Shown: positions 32,857 to 64,000 of the stretch, piece by piece
Numbering within the stretch: the stretch's first letter is position 1
Layout: every line of letters starts with the position of its first letter
Assembly (NCBI GenBank): GCA_947452065.1
Contig: CANGBB010000001.1
Location: 186,001-250,000, forward strand
Reading direction: 5' to 3'
Length of the DNA: 64,000 bases
Origin: Gammaproteobacteria bacterium
GTDB taxonomy: Bacteria; Pseudomonadota; Gammaproteobacteria; Steroidobacterales; Steroidobacteraceae
The notes under the pieces: model-generated
What the model saw: the letters and a program-made list of their open reading frames with translations, nothing else
Told to the model about the DNA's origin: nothing
Database searches by the model: none
Position numbers and translations under genes: made by a program

Positions 32857-34215
32857 GTGAAGGGCTGGTCGCTCAGGAATCCCGTAGTGGCCTGGGCGAT
32901 GTACGACTGGGCCAATTCGGCCTATGCCACCACGGTGATGGCGGGGTTCTTTCCAACTTTTTTCCGCCAGTACTGGAGCAGTGGCGCCGAGGTCACTGTG
33001 ACGACCTGGCGGCTTGGGCTCGCCAACGGACTGGCCGGATTTCTCATCGCCGCATTGGCACCCATACTCGGGGCGCTGGCGGATCGCAGCGCCCGTCGAA
33101 AGCAGTTCATGTTTGCCTGGACCGTGTTGGGCGCACTGGCCTGCATGGCCATGTTCTTCGTCGGTCAGGGGCAGTGGTTGCTGGCGGCGGCATGTTTCGT
33201 ACTCGGTACGCTCGGCTTCAATGGCGGGATCGTGTTCAACGACGCGCTGATCACGCATGTGGCGGCACCGCGCGACTATGATCGCGTCTCGGCGCTCGGC
33301 TATGCACTCGGCTATCTGGGTGGCGGGTTGCTGTTCGCACTGAATGTGACGATGACTGTGAAGCCTGCTTGGTTCGGGTTGCACAATGCAGCCGAGGCCG
33401 TGCGCTGGAGCTTCCTCAGCGTCGGCATCTGGTGGGTGGTGTTCTCTCTGCCTCTGATGGTCTGGGTGCGCGAGCAGGACGGGGCGACGGGGCCCGGCGG
33501 TCTCGCCGCGTCGCTGCAGGAGTTGCGTCGCACGGTGCGCGATATCGCTGGCAACCGGCCGCTGTGGCTGTTTCTGCTTGCCTACTGGCTCTATATCGAC
33601 GGCGTCAACACGGTGATCAAAATGGCCGTGGACTTTGGCTTGTCGCTCGGCCTGCCAGCCTCCAGTCTGCTGGCCGCATTGCTGTTGACTCAGTTCGTGG
33701 CGTTCCCGGCCGCGATTGTCTTTGGCAGGCTCGGCGAGCGCTATGGCGCGAAGCGCGCGGTGCTGTTCGGGATTGGTGTGTACGGCGCGCTCAGCCTATA
33801 TGCGCTGCGATTGGCAAGCATCGCTGAGTTCTGGGTGCTGGCCGTTGTCGTCGGACTGGTTCAGGGGGGCGTGCAGAGTCTCTCCCGTTCGCTGTTCGGT
33901 CGCTTCGTCCCGCCGGGCAGGGCAGCCGAGTACTTTGGGTTTTACAACCTGATGGGCAAGTTCGCCACGGTGCTTGGCCCGCTTTTGGTGGGCGCCACCG
34001 CGGCGCTGACTCACGACTCGCGCGCTGGCATCAGTTCACTGCTGCTGTTGTTCGTCAGTGGCGGGCTGCTGCTGTGGCGGGTCAGGGTGCCGCAAGCCCC
34101 GTGGTCACCGTCATCGACTCCGTCTTCGTTGCCCGTTGACGCGAGCGCCCGCGGCAGAGAACAATCGCCGGGCGGCGAGGGGTCATATTCCAATAAATCC
34201 GGGGGCGATAAATGA
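32857..34215 (+). CDS. UMF1/Atg22-type MFS transporter
   Basis: A 452-residue membrane carrier of the UMF1 branch of the major facilitators, with the family N-terminal signature AMYDWANSAYATTV and about twelve helices (for example GGFTR-type loops are replaced by the UMF1 RFVPPGRAAEYFGFYN motif near residue 365). Substrates of bacterial UMF1 proteins are unknown; the distant yeast relative Atg22 exports amino acids from the vacuole. GTG 32857 is chosen because AAAGGA lies eight bases before it; an earlier GTG at 32827 would overlap prfC. The stop overlaps the next gene (ATGA). Confidence 0.85.
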   Translation: MKGWSLRNPVVAWAMYDWANSAYATTVMAGFFPTFFRQYWSSGAEVTVTTWRLGLANGLAGFLIAALAPILGALADRSARRKQFMFAWTVLGALACMAMFFVGQGQWLLAAACFVLGTLGFNGGIVFNDALITHVAAPRDYDRVSALGYALGYLGGGLLFALNVTMTVKPAWFGLHNAAEAVRWSFLSVGIWWVVFSLPLMVWVREQDGATGPGGLAASLQELRRTVRDIAGNRPLWLFLLAYWLYIDGVNTVIKMAVDFGLSLGLPASSLLAALLLTQFVAFPAAIVFGRLGERYGAKRAVLFGIGVYGALSLYALRLASIAEFWVLAVVVGLVQGGVQSLSRSLFGRFVPPGRAAEYFGFYNLMGKFATVLGPLLVGATAALTHDSRAGISSLLLLFVSGGLLLWRVRVPQAPWSPSSTPSSLPVDASARGREQSPGGEGSYSNKSGGDK

Positions 34216-35267
34216 TGGTCCTGAAAACTTCGCTTTGGTGTGCGTTTCTGGCGCTGCTTGCGGTGCCGGTGGCACGCGCGCATCACGGCATGGGCGGTGA
34301 GTTCGATACCAAGAGGACGGTCGAGTTTGCCGCAGTCATTTCATCCGTGACCTGGGCCAATCCGCACGTCAGGATGGAACTGACGGAGGATGCGGGCAAG
34401 AGCACCGCCAAGACCTGGCTGATCGAGACCAACTCGGTCTCCAGCCTTTCGCGAGTCGGGATCACCCGCGATATTGCTGCGGTGGGCGCGCCGATCCGGG
34501 TGGCGGGTTTCCCCTCGCTGACCAGCGATCGTCGCCTCTTCATGACCCACATGCTGCTGCCCGACGGCCGCGAGGTGGCGTTCCAAGACAATGGCAAGGC
34601 GCGCTGGCAGGGCGTGCCGGTGGGTAACGACGACAGGACCCGCGGCAAGATCGTCGAAGCAGATTTCAGCAAGCGTCCGACCTCCATCTTTTCCGTGTGG
34701 ACTACGGTCTACGGCAACCTCGGCAGTCACAACACCCAGCCGGCAGCCTCGGCCGGCTATCCGGCTACAGCGCGCGGATTGCAGGAAGCTGCGGCGGTCG
34801 ACATGGTCCGCGATCATCCGCTCAACGACTGCAAGCCCAAGGGCATGCCGGTGGCGATGTTTGCGCCGTATCCGGTACAGCTGATTAAGGACGGCGCCAA
34901 TATCAAGGTGCGCTTGGAAGAGTACGACGCCGAGCGCCTGATCGTGATGACCAGCAAGCATGATGATTCGCGTGTCGCGCCCAGTCGCCTCGGTTATTCC
35001 ACCGGCGTGTGGGAGGGCGACAAGTTGGTTGTGAAAACCACCAAGATCGACTATCGCTACCTCGGCATCCAGACCCAGCCGACGCCGGTTATCCAAGGGC
35101 CGCGCATCAGCACCGTGGAGACCTTCCAACTTAGCGCCGATCACAATCAGCTGAACTACACCGTAGTAATCACTGACCCGGATTACCTCACCAAACCGCT
35201 GACGGTGAGCAAGTTCTGGCAGTACCAGCCCGGTGCAAAGGTCGACCGATACAACTGCACGCGCTGA
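34212..35267 (+). CDS. Exported DUF6152-type protein with WEGD-type C-terminal domain
   Basis: A 351-residue protein with a clear signal peptide (SLWCAFLALLAVPVARA, cleavage before HHGMGG). Residues about 24-115 match the DUF6152 type: AHHG at the mature N-terminus, then VTWANPHVRMEL. Residues about 195-351 match a second uncharacterised exported module with KPKGMPVAMFAPYP, PSRLGYSTGVWEGDKLVV and a final Cys. No catalytic residues can be assigned; the mature N-terminal HH could bind metal. It starts inside the UMF1 stop codon and leads a plus-strand group with the ABM protein and cytochrome c at 36006. Confidence 0.7.
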   Translation: MMVLKTSLWCAFLALLAVPVARAHHGMGGEFDTKRTVEFAAVISSVTWANPHVRMELTEDAGKSTAKTWLIETNSVSSLSRVGITRDIAAVGAPIRVAGFPSLTSDRRLFMTHMLLPDGREVAFQDNGKARWQGVPVGNDDRTRGKIVEADFSKRPTSIFSVWTTVYGNLGSHNTQPAASAGYPATARGLQEAAAVDMVRDHPLNDCKPKGMPVAMFAPYPVQLIKDGANIKVRLEEYDAERLIVMTSKHDDSRVAPSRLGYSTGVWEGDKLVVKTTKIDYRYLGIQTQPTPVIQGPRISTVETFQLSADHNQLNYTVVITDPDYLTKPLTVSKFWQYQPGAKVDRYNCTR

Positions 35268-35313
35268 GAGCGGTGCGGATGCGGCGACCCTGGACAGGCA
35301 AGGCGAGTTGGCC

Positions 35314-36009
35314 GTGAGGGGCTTCGTCGGCTTGCTGCTGTGGCTGATGGCTCTAGTTGCGGTGGCCCAAGCACCGGGACCCGCATCGCCGTCGCCGGAC
35401 GGACAGCGCTCCGTCGCCAGCTACATTGCGGTGGAGGCGGGCCAGGATGCCGCCGCGGTGACGGCGCTCAAGGCTTATGCGGCGGGACTGAGACTCGACC
35501 CGGCGGCGCAGCGGGTGCTGCTCCTGACAGAGATCGGTCGTCCAGGGCAGTTCGTGCTGCTCGAGTCATGGCGCGACGAGGCGGCTTGGTTGGCCCATGT
35601 GGCGGCTCCTTCGCGGCGGGCGCTTGAGCAGGCGCTGCAACCGTTTTTGTTGGCACCGTTCGATGATCGTCTCGGTCTGCCCATGCAGCGTGAAGCGCCG
35701 GCCAGCGAGCCGCGTGATGCCTTGCACGTGGTGCTGCATGTGGATGTCACGGGCACGGGTATCGACACCATGCCAGAGACATTGCGCGAAACAGCCAGCA
35801 AGGCGCTGCGAATGCCCGGGGCAATCGCTTTCGAGATCGCAACCCAGAGCAACAAGCGCAATCATTTTACCGTGAACGAGATCTGGGCGAGCCGCGCCGC
35901 CTACGACGCCTACAACGCCAGTGCCACGGCCAAGGAATTTCGTGCCCGCTTCCATCAGGTGAAGGGCGCCGTCTACGACGATCGCCTGTTCACGCAGATC
36001 CCACCTTGA
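35314..36009 (+). CDS. Exported tandem antibiotic-biosynthesis-monooxygenase (ABM) domain protein
   Basis: A 231-residue protein with a signal peptide (FVGLLLWLMALVAVAQA) and two ABM-like ferredoxin-fold repeats: about residues 35-120, with LLESWRDEAAWLAH, and about 140-230, with VNEIWASRAAYDAYN; both repeats end in a similar segment (PFDDRLG and VYDDRLF). ABM domains normally dimerise, so the tandem copy would form an intramolecular pair. Start GTG 35314 has AAGGCGAG upstream; a frame open further 5' overlaps the previous gene and lacks character. The stop overlaps the TTG start of the cytochrome gene. Function unknown: quinol or heme-related oxidation are the family options. Confidence 0.65.
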   Translation: MRGFVGLLLWLMALVAVAQAPGPASPSPDGQRSVASYIAVEAGQDAAAVTALKAYAAGLRLDPAAQRVLLLTEIGRPGQFVLLESWRDEAAWLAHVAAPSRRALEQALQPFLLAPFDDRLGLPMQREAPASEPRDALHVVLHVDVTGTGIDTMPETLRETASKALRMPGAIAFEIATQSNKRNHFTVNEIWASRAAYDAYNASATAKEFRARFHQVKGAVYDDRLFTQIPP

Positions 36010-37034
36010 GCCGCCGGCGCTGCGTACTGCTGACACTGGCACTGTGCGCCGCCTGGGTGGCTCAGGCGCGGATGGATGCCTTGCCCTTGTGGGCCTATGG
36101 ATACATCCACTATCCAACCGTGCCCGATGACTATTCGATGAGATGTCAGGGTGAACGGGCCGATCCCTGTGACCGGCCCGGTGGGCTGCCAACCGATCCC
36201 ACGGACACACCGCGACGCGTGCCGGGAAGCGAGCGCACATTTACCGTGGCGCAGATCAATGCACGCTACGACCCCGCCGACTGGTTTCCCGACGATCACC
36301 CGCCGATGCCCGACATCGTTGCGCACGGCAAGGCGTCGCAGGGCGCGCGGGCCTGCGCGATCTGCCATCTGCCAAACGGCAAAGGGCTGATGCAAAACGG
36401 TAGCGTCGCCGGGTTGCCACGCGAGTACATCCTGCAGCAGCTCGCAGATTTCAAAAACGGGCGACGACACACGGCCGATCCGAACAAGGCCAATGGTTAC
36501 GAGATGCAGGCCGTGGCGCGTAATCTGACCGAGGCTGAGGCGCAGGCGGCGGCTGAGTACTTCGCCTCGCTCCCGTACACGAAGTGGGTGCGAGTGGTGG
36601 AGTCGGAGACGGTCCCGCTCTTCACCGCAACGGTCAACGGCCTGTTTCTGCGCTCGGAGGGCAGCGATGTCGTGGCGCTCGGTCAACGCATCGTCGAAAT
36701 GCCGGAGGATACTGAGCAGACCAATCTGCTGCGCAATCCGCGCTCGGGTTTCGTCGCCTATGTGCCGGTGGGAAGCCTGCGTCAGGGCCGCGCGCTGGTG
36801 GACTCGCAATGCACCGTGTGTCACGGCGCGCAGTTGCGCGGTATGACGCTGGCTGGCGTGATCATGCCGCCGATCGCCGGGCGCTCACCGAGCTACATCG
36901 GTCGCGCGCTCTACGATTTTCAGCACGGCGCGCGCACCGGCGTGGCTGCAGCGCAAATGCAGGCGGTGGTGCAGGGGCTGGGTGAACAGGAAGTGATTGC
37001 GATCGCCGCTTACGTCGCCTCACTCGATCCCTGA
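36006..37034 (+). CDS. Diheme cytochrome c, periplasmic (paralogue 1)
   Basis: A 342-residue exported protein with a signal peptide (LLTLALCAAWVAQA) and two class I heme sites: CAICH at residues 117-121 and CTVCH at 269-273. Candidate axial Met residues follow each site (EMQAV and VIMPP). The first ~100 mature residues are a family-specific region with DWFPDDHPPMPDIVAHG just before heme 1. It is closely similar in order and motifs to the protein at 38249-39280. Start TTG 36006 overlaps the ABM stop (TTGA), indicating coupled translation. Likely an electron carrier or the electron-accepting subunit for a periplasmic dehydrogenase; no partner is in the window. Confidence 0.82.
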   Translation: MSRRRCVLLTLALCAAWVAQARMDALPLWAYGYIHYPTVPDDYSMRCQGERADPCDRPGGLPTDPTDTPRRVPGSERTFTVAQINARYDPADWFPDDHPPMPDIVAHGKASQGARACAICHLPNGKGLMQNGSVAGLPREYILQQLADFKNGRRHTADPNKANGYEMQAVARNLTEAEAQAAAEYFASLPYTKWVRVVESETVPLFTATVNGLFLRSEGSDVVALGQRIVEMPEDTEQTNLLRNPRSGFVAYVPVGSLRQGRALVDSQCTVCHGAQLRGMTLAGVIMPPIAGRSPSYIGRALYDFQHGARTGVAAAQMQAVVQGLGEQEVIAIAAYVASLDP

Positions 37035-37054
37035 TCCGTAGCGGCTGGGCGGCG

Positions 37055-38089
37055 CTAGAGCCCCAGCTGCTGCAAGGTGTCGCGATGGAATTCCCGTCGT
37101 GCCTCGGCGTAAATTGGTGTCACGGCACTGGCAAATTGCCGATGCTCATCGGCTGTTAGTTCCAAGATCTCGCCGCCTGCGGCACGGATCTGAGTCATCG
37201 CGTCTTGTTCTTCCCGGATGTGTAGATCGCGCTGGAACACGACTGCATCGTGGATCGCAGCGCGCATTTCTTCCTGCAGTGCGCGTGGCCAGGCATCAAA
37301 GGTCGGCCGATGCAGGAAAATTGGACGAGAGACATAGAAGTGATGCGTCGCGGTGTGGAAGCGGTGAAACCGGTGCACACCGTAGGTCACGGTGTTGGCG
37401 AAGGGGTTTTCCTGCGCATCCAGTGTCCCGGTCTGGACGGCCTCAGGCACTTCGGAAAGATCCATCACCTTCGGCACCGCGCCGAGTAGTTCAAAGGTGC
37501 GTGCCTGAACTTTGCTGGGCAGCACGCGGATTTTCATGCCCTGCATGTCGGCTGGTACGCGGATCGGTCGCAGTCGGTTGGACACGTGGCGAAAGCCGTT
37601 CTCGAAGTAGCCCAGGATCCGATAGTTCATCGCGGCTTCGATGCGCGCGGTCAGTAGTTGGCCGAGGCGTCCGTCCATGGCGGCACGGGCGTGCGGCAGG
37701 TCGGGGAATACGAAGGGCAGGTCGGTGGCACCGAGCTCCGGAACACGCTCGGTCAAATAGCTGCTCGACTGATAGCCGAGGGTGAGCACACCCTGTTCTA
37801 CCAACCACAGAATGTCGTCGGCTCGGTAGCCGAGGTCGAGGATATTGAAGACGTACTTGATCTCGACCGCATCCCCGAAGCGTTCCTCGAGCCGTGCGCC
37901 GATTCTCTTGAGCGCCAGACTGAAGCCGGTGGTGGCTGGCCCATAGCCGCCCATCACGATTCGGTGGCGCTGGCTTCTCGAACGGGACGAGGAGCTTTGC
38001 TGCGAGCTGGCCGCAAGGGCCAAGGGCTGGCCCGCCAGTGCGGTCGCGCTGGCCAATGCTGAACCCTGTAAAAAGCGTCGTCTCAACAT
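37055..38089 (-). CDS. TRAP-type substrate-binding protein (DctP family), Tat-exported
   Basis: A 344-residue periplasmic binding protein of the DctP family. The N-terminus RRRFLQGSALASA is a twin-arginine signal. Downstream, GLDLG-type elements such as FNILDLGYRADD, FENGFRHVSNRLRPI, MQGMKIRVLPS and ENPFANT match the TRAP receptor fold; the MKIRV Arg normally pairs with a substrate carboxylate. No dctQ or dctM membrane gene lies nearby, so it may serve a distant transporter or act as a chaperone/sensor. It sits alone on the minus strand between the two cytochrome paralogues, with a 159-base gap to the second, which holds no gene I can recognise. Confidence 0.82.
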   Translation of the reverse strand: MLRRRFLQGSALASATALAGQPLALAASSQQSSSSRSRSQRHRIVMGGYGPATTGFSLALKRIGARLEERFGDAVEIKYVFNILDLGYRADDILWLVEQGVLTLGYQSSSYLTERVPELGATDLPFVFPDLPHARAAMDGRLGQLLTARIEAAMNYRILGYFENGFRHVSNRLRPIRVPADMQGMKIRVLPSKVQARTFELLGAVPKVMDLSEVPEAVQTGTLDAQENPFANTVTYGVHRFHRFHTATHHFYVSRPIFLHRPTFDAWPRALQEEMRAAIHDAVVFQRDLHIREEQDAMTQIRAAGGEILELTADEHRQFASAVTPIYAEARREFHRDTLQQLGL

Positions 38090-38248
38090 GCGTCTCACAC
38101 GCCGCGTTGCGTCTGGGGTAATGTTTACGCCAGTACAGTGTGCGGCAGCATACACCAGCGTCAGCCCGGCTCGAGACCGGGGCGCTGGCAAGATGCCGAG
38201 GTCTGCTCGCGTCGCTTCGATGGCGACACGTATGGGGGAGAGGTATTG

Positions 38249-39280
38249 ATGAAGACGTTGGCGATCCTGGTGCTTGGGGCATTGCTGCTGGTATTTCAGC
38301 AACAGCTTTCGCGTGATCAGCAGGCCGCACCGGACTGGGCCTATGGCTATCAGCGCGCGCTCCGGCCGGGTGATGTCATTGCGCCACCGTGTCCTGAGAC
38401 TGCGCGACCATTTCCTGACTGCGCCTACGCGGCGACGCTGCCACCGCGGGATGGCATCAAGCACACGTTGCCGGGGGCAGCAGCCAGCTTCACTCGGGTC
38501 GAAGCGTATTACGACTTTGGTCCCGCGGATTGGTACCCGGAAGATCATCCGCCGATGCCAGACATCGTGGCCCACGGCCGCGAGTCGGCCGGTATACGCG
38601 CCTGTGCCCTGTGCCACTTCCCGAATGGGCAGGGCAAGATGGAGAACGGTGGTGTGGCCGGATTGTCGGCCTCCTACATCCTCCAGCAGATCGAGGCTTT
38701 CAAGAGCGGAGCGCGCCGCAGCGCCGATCCGCGCAAGGCCAATGTCAAGGAGATGGCGCAGGTTGCACGACTGCTGACGGACGAGGAGAAGCATGCAGCG
38801 GCGGAGTACTTTGCTTCGCTGCGCTGGCGACCATGGGTGAAAGTGGTCGAGACCGACACGGTGCCCGCGGTGCGCGCGACCACCAATGGACTGTTCATGC
38901 CGCTGACCGATCGACCGCCGATGGCATTGGGCGCGCGCATCATTGAGGTGCCGCAGCGGCCGCGCGATACGGACGAGTTGCGCGATCCACGGGCCGGGTT
39001 TCTGGCCTATGTGCCACGCGGCAGTATCGCCAAGGGCGCGGCGCTGGTGGCCACTGGCGGCGGTAAGACGCTGCCCTGTGGCACCTGCCACGGTGCGGAT
39101 TTGCGGGGCGTCGGCGATATCCCGGGCATTGCCGGGCGCACCGCCAGCTATCTGGTGCGCCAGCTGTGGGACATGAAGCAGGGCGCGCGCCAGAGCCCGG
39201 TGATGGCGCCGGTGACCGCAAGACTGGAGGTCAGTGACCTGATCAATCTCGCGGCTTTCGTCGCCTCACGCGAGCCGTGA
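38249..39280 (+). CDS. Diheme cytochrome c, periplasmic (paralogue 2)
   Basis: A 343-residue exported protein (signal segment LAILVLGALLLVFQQQL) with heme sites CALCH at 119-123 and CGTCH at 277-281. It matches the protein at 36006-37034 over most of its length: DWYPEDHPPMPDIVAHG, ASYILQQIEAFKSGARR, HAAAEYFASL, TTNGLFM and FLAYVPRGSIAKG have near-identical counterparts. Start ATG 38249 has GAGG about five bases upstream. The N-terminal helix may be retained as a membrane anchor since no clear AxA site follows. It ends 19 bases from convergent valS. Confidence 0.82.
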   Translation: MKTLAILVLGALLLVFQQQLSRDQQAAPDWAYGYQRALRPGDVIAPPCPETARPFPDCAYAATLPPRDGIKHTLPGAAASFTRVEAYYDFGPADWYPEDHPPMPDIVAHGRESAGIRACALCHFPNGQGKMENGGVAGLSASYILQQIEAFKSGARRSADPRKANVKEMAQVARLLTDEEKHAAAEYFASLRWRPWVKVVETDTVPAVRATTNGLFMPLTDRPPMALGARIIEVPQRPRDTDELRDPRAGFLAYVPRGSIAKGAALVATGGGKTLPCGTCHGADLRGVGDIPGIAGRTASYLVRQLWDMKQGARQSPVMAPVTARLEVSDLINLAAFVASREP

Positions 39281-62350: not shown

Positions 62351-63790
62351 ATGAGTAATGAGTCTGCGGTGGGTGCCGGATCCAACGGCTTGATCTACAA
62401 CGATGCCGTGGTCCGAAACTTCGCGATCATGACCGTGGTCTGGGGCATCGTCGGCATGCTCGTCGGTGTGATCATCGCCGCCCAGCTGATCTGGCCTGAC
62501 CTGACCTACGGTATCCCCTTCCTGAGTTACGGCCGACTTCGGCCGTTGCACACCAACGCCGTCATCTTCGCCTTTGGCGGTTCGGCACTGTTTGCCAGTT
62601 CGTACTACTGCGTGCAGCGCACCTGCCAAGCGAGACTGTTCGGTGGTTCACTGGCGGCATTCACCTTCTGGGGCTGGCAGCTGGTCATTGTGCTGGCCGC
62701 CATCACCTTGCCGATGGGTATGACCAGCGCCAAGGAATATGCCGAGCTGGAATGGCCCATTGATGTGCTTATCGCAGTGGTCTGGATTGCCTATGCGGTG
62801 GTTTTTCTGGGCACTTTGGCCCGGCGCAAAGTGAAGCATATCTATGTCGCCAACTGGTTCTTTGCGGCCTACATCATCACCATCGCAGTCTTGCATGTGG
62901 TGAACAGCGCGGAGATTCCGGTCACTCTCACCAAGTCCTACTCAGCCTATGCAGGCACTGTGGATGCGATGGTGCAGTGGTGGTACGGACACAATGCGGT
63001 GGGTTTCTTCCTGACCGCTGGTTTCCTCGGCATGGTGTATTACTTCGTGCCCAAACAGGCCGGCCGGCCGGTGTATTCCTACCGTCTGTCGATTGTGCAC
63101 TTCTGGGCGCTGATCTCGGTCTATATGTGGGCCGGTCCCCATCATCTGCATTACACCACGCTGCCGGACTGGGCCCAGTCACTGGGTATGGTGTTCTCGC
63201 TGCTGCTGTTGGCGCCGAGCTGGGGCGGAATGATCAACGGCATCATGACGCTCTCTGGCGCCTGGCATAAGTTGCGTACCGACCCGATCCTCAAGTTCAT
63301 GATCGTGTCGTTGTCGTTCTACGGCATGTCGACCTTCGAAGGACCGATGATGTCGATCAAGACGGTCAATGCACTGTCGCATTACACGGACTGGACCATC
63401 GGGCATGTGCATTCCGGCGCGCTGGGCTGGGTGGCGATGATCAGCATCGGATGCATTTATTCACTGATACCGCGACTTTATGGACGCTCTGGCATGTGGA
63501 GCACGCGCCTGATCGACTGGCATTTTTGGACCACCACCATCGGCATTGTGCTGTACATCGCCGCCATGTGGATCGCTGGTGTGATGCAGGGTCTGATGTG
63601 GCGCGCCACCAATCCGGACGGCACGCTGACCTACACCTTCGTCCAGGCACTGGCGGCGACGCACCCGTATTACATCGTCCGCTTCATCGGTGGTCTGCTG
63701 GTACTCAGCGGCATGTTCCTCATGCTGTACAACGTGCGCCGCACTATCGCCGGCGAGCGCGCGGATTCTCTGACGCCGCTGGCAGCCTGA
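62351..63790 (+). CDS. ccoN: cbb3-type cytochrome c oxidase subunit I
   Basis: Catalytic subunit of the high-affinity cbb3 terminal oxidase (heme b, heme b3-CuB) in the inner membrane. The 479 residues show twelve helices and the metal ligands: His in [21 protein letters not shown] (CuB His), [15 protein letters not shown] (CuB His pair) and [14 protein letters not shown] (heme His pair). Start ATG 62351 follows GGAGG by four bases. ccoO begins 22 bases after the stop, giving the usual ccoNO(QP) order; the rest is beyond the window. Confidence 0.97.
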
Positions 63791-63812
63791 AGCGAGCACC
63801 AGGAAGCGCATC

Positions 63813-64000
63813 GTGAATCACGACATCATCGAGACCCGTACCGGCCTGCTGGGCGTGCTCATTGCCATCGTCATCAGTATTGCCGGCCTGGTGGAAATCG
63901 TGCCGCTTTTCTTTTCCAGTCAGGTCACCCGTCCGGCGCCTGGAATCACACCGTACCCGGCACTGGCTTTGGAAGGGCGCGATATCTACATCCGCGAGGG
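63813..64000 (+). CDS. ccoO: cbb3-type cytochrome c oxidase subunit II, 3' truncated by window edge
   Basis: The visible 62 residues are the N-terminus of CcoO, the membrane-anchored monoheme cytochrome c subunit: a single helix (LLGVLIAIVISIAGLVEIV), then PLFFSSQVTRPAPG and the family motif LEGRDIYIREG that directly precedes the heme CxxCH site outside the window. The GTG start at 63813 has AGGA eight bases upstream; the protein N-terminus MNHDIIE is typical. It lies 22 bases after ccoN, and its position after that gene confirms the call. Confidence 0.93.
   Translation, partial: MNHDIIETRTGLLGVLIAIVISIAGLVEIVPLFFSSQVTRPAPGITPYPALALEGRDIYIRE

Follow-up and report, generated by a model that had tools for sequence, protein, structure and literature searches.

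A candidate two-part periplasmic oxidation module of DUF6152, tandem ABM, orphan DctP-like and diheme cytochrome c proteins in a gammaproteobacterium

The closest described systems to the one studied here are the tripartite ATP-independent periplasmic (TRAP) transporters (DctPQM), the cytochrome c4 family, tandem ABM proteins and metalloproteins with an N-terminal histidine (His). An N-terminal His has been used to detect metalloproteins, and DUF4198, DUF6702 and the 'anglerases' are reported in that work (PMC12537917). Here we analyse five genes at 34212–39280 of a 64,000-nucleotide stretch of gammaproteobacterial DNA (hereafter the window, i.e. the whole stretch; G000:C1:186001-250000 of a 2.17-Mb genome that is 96% complete; G and L label genomes and loci, respectively). 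They encode a DUF6152 protein, a tandem ABM protein, a DctP-like binding protein and two diheme cytochromes c (CytA and CytB). From their co-location, the orphan state of DctP, the cytochrome clades, the modelled folds and the histidine pattern, all computed here, we read the locus as a periplasmic oxidation module of two sub-modules, in which a carboxylate is oxidised and its electrons pass to cytochrome c (probability roughly 0.5). That the five genes form a functional unit is likely; that a substrate is oxidised with a cytochrome as acceptor is, taken by itself, somewhat less likely than not. The features are as follows.

34212..35267, plus strand: two-domain DUF6152 protein of 351 amino acids (aa; Pfam PF19649, 51.6 bits, cut-off 27)
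34281..34286, plus strand: two His codons, for residues 1–2 of DUF6152 in its presumed mature form; with His29 ('ANPH') these are candidate metal ligands, from the sequence pattern
35314..36009, plus strand: tandem ABM protein with an export signal, 231 aa when started at GTG 35314 (PF03992, 69.0 bits in two stretches, cut-off 23.1)
36006..37034, plus strand: CytA, diheme c4-like cytochrome with a TTG start; CxxCH at 36354-36368 and 36810-36824 (Pfam, DNA)
37055..38089, minus strand: orphan DctP-like (TRAP-type) binding protein with a twin-arginine translocation (Tat) signal (PF03480, 188.9 bits, cut-off 23.4)
38090..38248, no strand: divergent intergenic region between DctP (minus) and CytB (plus), possibly a shared control region (from the sequence)
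38249..39280, plus strand: CytB, diheme c4-like cytochrome; CxxCH at 38603-38617 and 39077-39091 (Pfam, DNA)

Our results reveal that these families recur together in other genomes. DctP relatives were sought in one genome per species, which gave 324 stretches; locus work used the best 80 (L173–L252, 54–72% identity), which span Gamma-, Alpha- and Betaproteobacteria, Acidobacteria, SAR324, Nitrospinae and others according to record titles. Locus gene content was scored by six-frame profile scans. All five families lie within 11 kb at two other places (i.e. L204 and L277). L204 contains two full-length DUF6152 genes, two tandem cytochromes, SnoaL, a tandem ABM, a protein of 714 aa whose carboxypeptidase-regulatory match is below threshold, DoxX and DctP; L277 contains DctP on the minus strand, ABM, SnoaL and two cytochromes on the plus strand, and DUF6152 5 kb on (10.6 kb in all). 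Read as its reverse complement, L204 has the same order as L277, i.e. DctP (minus) followed by ABM–SnoaL–Cyt–Cyt (plus). Four of the five families are found at L194 (DUF6152, one cytochrome, a lectin-esterase, DctP, ABM, a fumarylacetoacetate (FAA)-hydrolase-family protein, a second DctP and two metallo-beta-lactamase-fold proteins), and L184 resembles it, with ABM, two DctP and a cytochrome fragment cut by the contig end. By tblastn with the window proteins, ABM was present in five of the 80 DctP loci, CytA/CytB in three (L184, L194 and L204, all with ABM) and DUF6152 in 12. L277 came from an ABM-seeded search of 194 relatives of L204's genome, where ABM reached E ≤ 1e-20 in 2/194 (itself included); among 266 relatives of L194's genome, ABM did so only in that genome itself and in L184's.

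The 12 genomes chosen for their orphan DctP, picked from the 80 loci by titles (Gammaproteobacteria, a gammaproteobacterial group or plain Proteobacteria), all have the cytochrome family under the E-value threshold of a class search, in which, among 369 genomes and at strict cut-offs, the ABM, DctP and cytochrome families were each found only in the window's own genome, which points to rarity; at most 5–7 candidates per genome (at most five for the cytochrome) were scored class-wide, and all in the 12-genome search. The chance of finding DctP, ABM and two cytochromes in 5.1 kb is ∼3e-7 under uniform placement with own-genome counts (one DctP, one tandem ABM and four such cytochromes), a guide only, as gene order is not uniform. 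An account as chance neighbours, first suggested by a sample of 98 genomes (relatives, own genome included; neighbourhoods up to 20 kb around cytochromes), was overturned when the DctP-seeded scan found the other loci. Since the families co-locate in L204, L277, L194 and L184, the module claim of the initial annotation survives the co-occurrence test, with a positive though patchy outcome: a few lineages do have the module, and the complete set is missing from the sampled near relatives.

The two cytochromes, which share 48% identity (alignment A3), divide the set into two parts. In a maximum likelihood tree of 71 rows, from which the 130-aa L184 fragment (too short) and weak cytochrome matches were left out, the CytA clade consists of exactly the window, G462, G469 and G471 (support 100/99), and the CytB clade of 15 rows (support 100/100) holds all placed ABM/DctP-adjacent cytochromes outside the window (i.e. 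L194, two of L204 and two of L277). The CytB clade is present in 9/12 DctP genomes, being absent in G470 and G472, with the G462 fragment unplaced. It occurs in three of the 98 genomes of the relatives sample (own, G029 and G064), i.e. in 2/4 with an orphan DctP (own, G064, G078 and G091) versus 1/94 of the others (Fisher 0.0037). G462, G469 and G471 carry both halves, at separate places, and a CytA relative lies directly downstream of a full-length DUF6152 gene on the same strand in G462 and G469 (L259 and L261), though not in G471 (L265). Across the 13 genomes (the 12 DctP genomes and the own genome), a CytA-clade gene coincides with a DctP + ABM + cytochrome locus, with four having both and nine neither (Fisher 0.0014). 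Full-length DUF6152 lies within 1 kb of 8/25 cytochromes in the DctP genomes (two of the eight in L194 and L204), against a background of 4/135 genes at least 4 kb from any cytochrome (Fisher 3.9e-5). The five-gene set thus consists of two sub-modules, which lie apart in other genomes and are interleaved in the window; that the halves are interleaved here and co-present elsewhere is the strongest argument for their belonging together. A plasmid search with CytA gave two matches, the best with 36% identity over 77% of the query. At G064:C6:20360-22602 (L080), a CytB-clade cytochrome and a DctM gene are ∼30 bp apart, and a DctP-like match follows after another 0.8 kb.

Gene calls and Pfam bear out five consecutive genes between the prfC side and the valS side: prfC and an Atg22-like major facilitator superfamily (MFS) gene (PF11700) precede the set and valS follows it, with strands + + + − + across the five. 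The two cytochromes score 57.4 and 41.8 bits with Pfam Cytochrom_C (cut-off 21.3), and the two CxxCH sites described for each are present in the DNA. Export signals, which the initial annotation gave to every product, were recognised by eye in all five proteins, and Tat export of the binding protein was confirmed by an NCBIfam profile (TIGR01409, 17.3 versus a cut-off of 16.7). Consecutive placement stands, but as DctP is on the minus strand the five-gene set is not one transcription unit; DctP and CytB are divergent and 159 bp apart. Of a proposed chain of three genes joined by stop–start overlaps, the ABM–CytA link holds (TTGA, 36006-36009) and is the only clear one inside the set. The MFS gene that precedes the set and the DUF6152 gene share an ATGA (34212-34215), and a DUF6152–ABM overlap would need the less likely GTG 35233, 27 codons 5′ of GTG 35314. 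The latter start is preferred because the signal peptide begins there and homologues, as called, start with signal peptides; it leaves a 46-bp gap after the DUF6152 gene, with no overlap. Promoter and terminator predictions at the locus did not rise above shuffled sequences, and no promoter-like site was reported in 38090..38248. A long antisense frame runs opposite CytB.

The binding protein has one match in its own genome, that of the window. A search for DctM gave 0 matches in this genome, whereas the same search, in which DctQ was not included, gave 8, 11 and 12 in G064, G078 and G091 and was positive in 7/14 controls; it also gave 0 in G010, G029, G030 and G048. With no DctM match in the genome we call the protein orphan, and the earlier label 'TRAP receptor' is misleading. 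It scores 138.2 with NF037995 (above the cut-off of 50) and 162 with TIGR00787 (below the cut-off of 175.05). Among the 80 loci, DctM lies inside the stored flanks in four and in none of the other 76, many flanks being short. All five aligned members retain an Arg at the position of an Arg in solved DctP structures, and we take its role to be carboxylate binding. An MFS family occurs within 6 kb of DctP in 9/80 loci, the L232 member being best matched by TIGR00895 (202.5 bits), as is the MFS near the G078 DctP at L152 (324.4 bits), both below the cut-off of 418.55; metallo-beta-lactamase-fold proteins lie near DctP in 10/80. These neighbours (aromatic-acid-symporter-like MFS and metallo-beta-lactamase fold) hint, loosely, at organic-acid catabolism. 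This is a clade of TRAP-type binding proteins mostly without DctM in their flanks, which may work outside transport, here beside cytochromes. At ten DctP loci whose record titles are alphaproteobacterial, a small, secreted and by eye CAP-like protein is encoded near DctP (median 145 bp).

The ABM protein is modelled (mean confidence (pLDDT) 89.6) as two domains of ferredoxin-like fold. Over its length, the model is matched in VIA by 3mcs (Z 24.2, 204 residues), 3f44 (23.2), the anthrone-oxidase-like 5f9p (19.8) and HmoB (15.3). W86, H142, N183, H184 and W191 are invariant in ten sequences. The oxidation of quinols or heme, which the initial annotation ascribed to ABM domains, is not established for the exported tandem protein here. 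In G064 (L093), an ABM gene lies ∼2.4 kb from a DUF6152 gene whose product is the sole other-family member in the 8-row clade of the window DUF6152; a DctM gene (G064:C4:57215-58471) lies ∼4.5 kb from that same DUF6152 gene. Here and at L080, G064 has ordinary TRAP genes next to parts of the module.

The DUF6152 protein has a presumed signal cleavage, predicted from sequence, at ARA^HH. His-His opens 97 of the 100 distinct DUF6152 domains; it is missing from two, and a locus edge truncates the remaining one. An NPH motif is present in 94. His-His is preceded by A, G or S in 93/97, by P in three and by T in one, and a small or aliphatic residue occupies position −3 in 97/97, as expected for a signal peptidase site; among 639 proteins outside DUF6152 with a crudely recognised signal peptide, His is at +1 in seven and His-His in none. 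In 95 rows of at least 100 residues, chosen for His-His, His occurs in more than 25 rows only at columns 1, 2 and 29, with His29 in 95/95; H1, H2, P28, H29, G69, C184, R219, G238 and C326 show no variation among 53 sequences likewise chosen for His-His. In an independent test the pattern also holds on plasmids: all 12 copies read in eight of 16 plasmid records (L291–L298; six genera, Novosphingobium, Sphingobium, Croceibacterium, Azospirillum, Sinorhizobium and Cupriavidus) have His-His after Ala and a PH (NPH in nine, APH in two and MPH in one). In 7/8 of these records, a DUF6644-like four-helix membrane gene lies within 3 kb of DUF6152 in a CopC/CopD-like layout; the profile used for it was built from four sequences, two of which belong to a single plasmid record of this set. 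A relationship of DUF6644 to CopD was rejected, three such proteins giving no CopD match up to an E-value of 10. At L072, the own genome also carries two neighbouring genes of the DUF6644-like kind.

The mature DUF6152 protein was modelled by AlphaFold2 with 52 homologues (mean pLDDT 93.1; mean 75 for the first ten residues, with His-His). In the model, residues 11–95 resemble an OB-fold (PriB best, Z 9.0, root-mean-square deviation 2.8 over 81) and residues 132–316 a lipocalin-like barrel as in fatty-acid-binding proteins (FABP; Z 8.9, 3.0 over 114); a Z of ∼9 is barely above the level that VIA calls common, although the matches span whole domains and agree with each other. Foldseek finds a CRABP barrel (E 5.7e-4, probability 1.00). 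By sequence, no solved relative is convincing (profile A4 reached only E 0.09–0.8, PriB OB-folds included), and no copper protein is among the Foldseek and VIA matches listed for the model, an absence that is not evidence. The His-His/PH pattern, together with the published N-terminal-His logic, makes DUF6152 a candidate metalloprotein family, and we regard metal binding through His1, His2 and His29 as about an even bet. DUF6152 is absent from the main text of PMC12537917 by full-text search, and a full-text literature search, with supplementary files outside its reach, found no paper on DUF6152 or PF19649. The pattern yields a concrete prediction of metal binding and is the most useful lead here; it goes beyond the initial annotation, as does the two-part structure of the module. 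The own genome has 25 DUF6152-type matches; in G078 and G091 (3.6–3.7 Mb), a first look gave 171 and 187 candidates (21 per genome scored), an extreme paralogue expansion if upheld.

In the scheme that we propose, sub-module I would comprise the two-domain DUF6152 protein and the CytA-type diheme cytochrome, and sub-module II the orphan DctP-like protein, the tandem ABM protein and the CytB-type diheme cytochrome. The orphan DctP would bind a carboxylate in the periplasm, perhaps an aromatic or hydrophobic one, and the ABM protein, the DUF6152 protein or both would oxidise or condition the ligand that it presents. The N-terminal His-His and the PH histidine of DUF6152 may hold a metal and its barrel a lipophilic ligand, and the two c4-like cytochromes would carry electrons to a terminal oxidase. 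Ligand, metal, enzyme, reaction and direction of electron flow are all inferred, and the earlier suggestion that an organic compound is captured and its electrons passed to cytochrome c is plausible. A bolder version, in which DUF6152 is a very large, hitherto unrecognised periplasmic metalloprotein family and a two-domain member with a lipid-binding-type barrel acts here as the metal-dependent oxidase or oxygenase of a carboxylate delivered by an ex-TRAP DctP, with diheme cytochromes c as acceptors, is unlikely as a whole. At the far end of the window (62351-63998 and beyond), there is, by eye, an apparent start of a cbb3 oxidase operon, with two Cytochrom_C domains at G000:C1:250990-251478.

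Several observations weigh against an oxidation module of this kind. The five-gene set is at one place in none of the 97 other relatives, and G064 has all the families, scattered over contigs. Across 17 cytochrome loci of the own genome and its relatives, plus L162–L164, the window is alone in having ABM at up to 5 kb or DctP at up to 8 kb; L162–L164 have no full-length DUF6152 within 1 kb, and in the own genome and relatives DUF6152 is not associated with cytochromes (within 1 kb of 1/18, the window, versus a background of 6/162). L185 and L236 combine DctP, ABM and DUF6152, and neither locus contains a cytochrome. In G462 and G469, CytA is partnered by a DUF6152 protein of a different DUF6152 clade than in the window, and the window ABM is just 26–29% identical to those of L184, L194 and L204 and groups weakly (58/43) with ABM genes outside such loci. 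The Fisher values above overstate independence, because the complete loci come from few lineages (e.g. G462 was found among the 266 relatives of G469, and G475 among the 194 of G471). Several DctP loci lie on short contigs, so that absence there is weak evidence, and the class sample is not matched for ecology.

An account without any functional unit, i.e. independent genes that are chance neighbours in a DUF6152-rich genome, is favoured by the lack of the set at one place in the 97 other relatives. With 25 DUF6152 matches in the genome, DUF6152 neighbours are cheap (one in a 5-kb span arises by chance in ∼6% of cases). However, the recurrence at L204, L277, L194 and L184 and the clade-specific partnership of CytA and CytB argue against it, as does the low chance estimate for the locus, in which DUF6152 is not even counted. 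We consider this account very unlikely, and it is already disfavoured. A different possibility accepts the unit and assigns it to metal or heme handling: DUF6152 would be an N-terminal-His metal binder like CopC or the 'anglerases', ABM would bind heme or be protective, and the set would supply or protect the metal centres of the cytochromes. The contrast in His-His between DUF6152 copies and other signal-peptide proteins fits this, as do the DUF6644-like genes on plasmids and the presence of HmoB, with heme, among the fold matches of the ABM model. By contrast, the DUF6644-like proteins failed to match CopD, the FABP-like barrel suggests an organic ligand, and an organic acid better fits a DctP clade that is TRAP-like and keeps the aligned Arg. 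Metal or heme handling is unlikely in our view.

Uptake is the other function to be weighed. Here the orphan DctP would feed a permease outside the TRAP type, namely an MFS resembling aromatic-acid/H+ symporters, and the cytochromes would serve enzymes of the same catabolic pathway and never touch the ligand. A TAXI-GltS system, in which a binding protein works with a different permease, is reported (PMC12344293). The single MFS family near DctP in some loci, nearest to TIGR00895, is in keeping with this, and next to a further cytochrome paralogue of the own genome (L069) lies a comparable MFS (196 bits). The MFS adjacent to the window set, however, is of another kind (Atg22-like) and was not seen in the other module loci examined for it, which did not include L277. 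We consider uptake quite unlikely. The periplasmic oxidation of a carboxylate remains the preferred reading.

We also considered the remaining neighbours of these loci. A linked quinoprotein or molybdenum dehydrogenase, for which the initial annotation suggested a search, was not recognised at the core module loci, in which family searches covered only part of the neighbours. A molybdopterin hydroxylase subunit (PF02738) adjoins DUF6152 near DctP in G078 (L152). As a partner, the molybdenum-hydroxylase-type family (by eye) was rejected, G078 case included, as not consistent: it lies within 6 kb in just 8/80 DctP loci. Molybdenum-hydroxylase-like pairs (2Fe-2S and large subunit, by eye) lie near or beside DUF6152 at L072 15449-18075 and L152 14403-17269, of which the L152 large subunit was family-searched. 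The FAA-hydrolase-family proteins with a Tat-like leader (L194 9105-9887 and L184 4108-4899) adjoin orphan DctP and ABM; the leader of the L194 protein scores 20.3 bits with PF10518, just below the cut-off of 22.7. Aldo/keto-reductase-like proteins, some with Tat-like leaders by eye, lie near module-type cytochromes at L277 6624-8591 and L069 13192-14136, and Pfam confirmed this identity for L277 7650-8591.

Compared with TRAP transporters, the window has a Tat-exported protein of the DctP family that keeps the aligned Arg, unlike them in that its genome lacks a DctM match and its clade seldom has DctM nearby. CytA and CytB score 44.9 and 31.8 bits against the profile of PdsA, a periplasmic diheme shuttle (NF049874), below the cut-off of 330. 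Like the cytochrome c4 family, they have two CxxCH domains, and c4 structures are the best solved relatives of CytA (6q2u, 3.8e-12). The CxxCH pairs and, after the heme sites, M169 and M319 are invariant in eight sequences, the latter being, by analogy, putative distal Met residues. CytA and CytB differ from c4 in being longer (∼340 aa) and in having an N-terminal WAYG region and a DW(Y/F)P.DHP.MP segment. The window ABM shares two ferredoxin-like ABM domains in one chain with other tandem ABM proteins (FN1347/3mcs, 3f44, 5f9p and HmoB), and differs in being exported and cytochrome-linked, with 9–13% identity. The modelled OB-fold and His-His pair of DUF6152, whose metal binding is putative, differ from the beta-sandwich reported for DUF6702 and the 'anglerases' (PMC12537917). 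DUF6152 resembles the N-terminal-His metalloproteins (i.e. LPMO, CopC, DUF4198, DUF6702 and Ang-1/2; same source) in its mature N-terminal His and a further conserved His.

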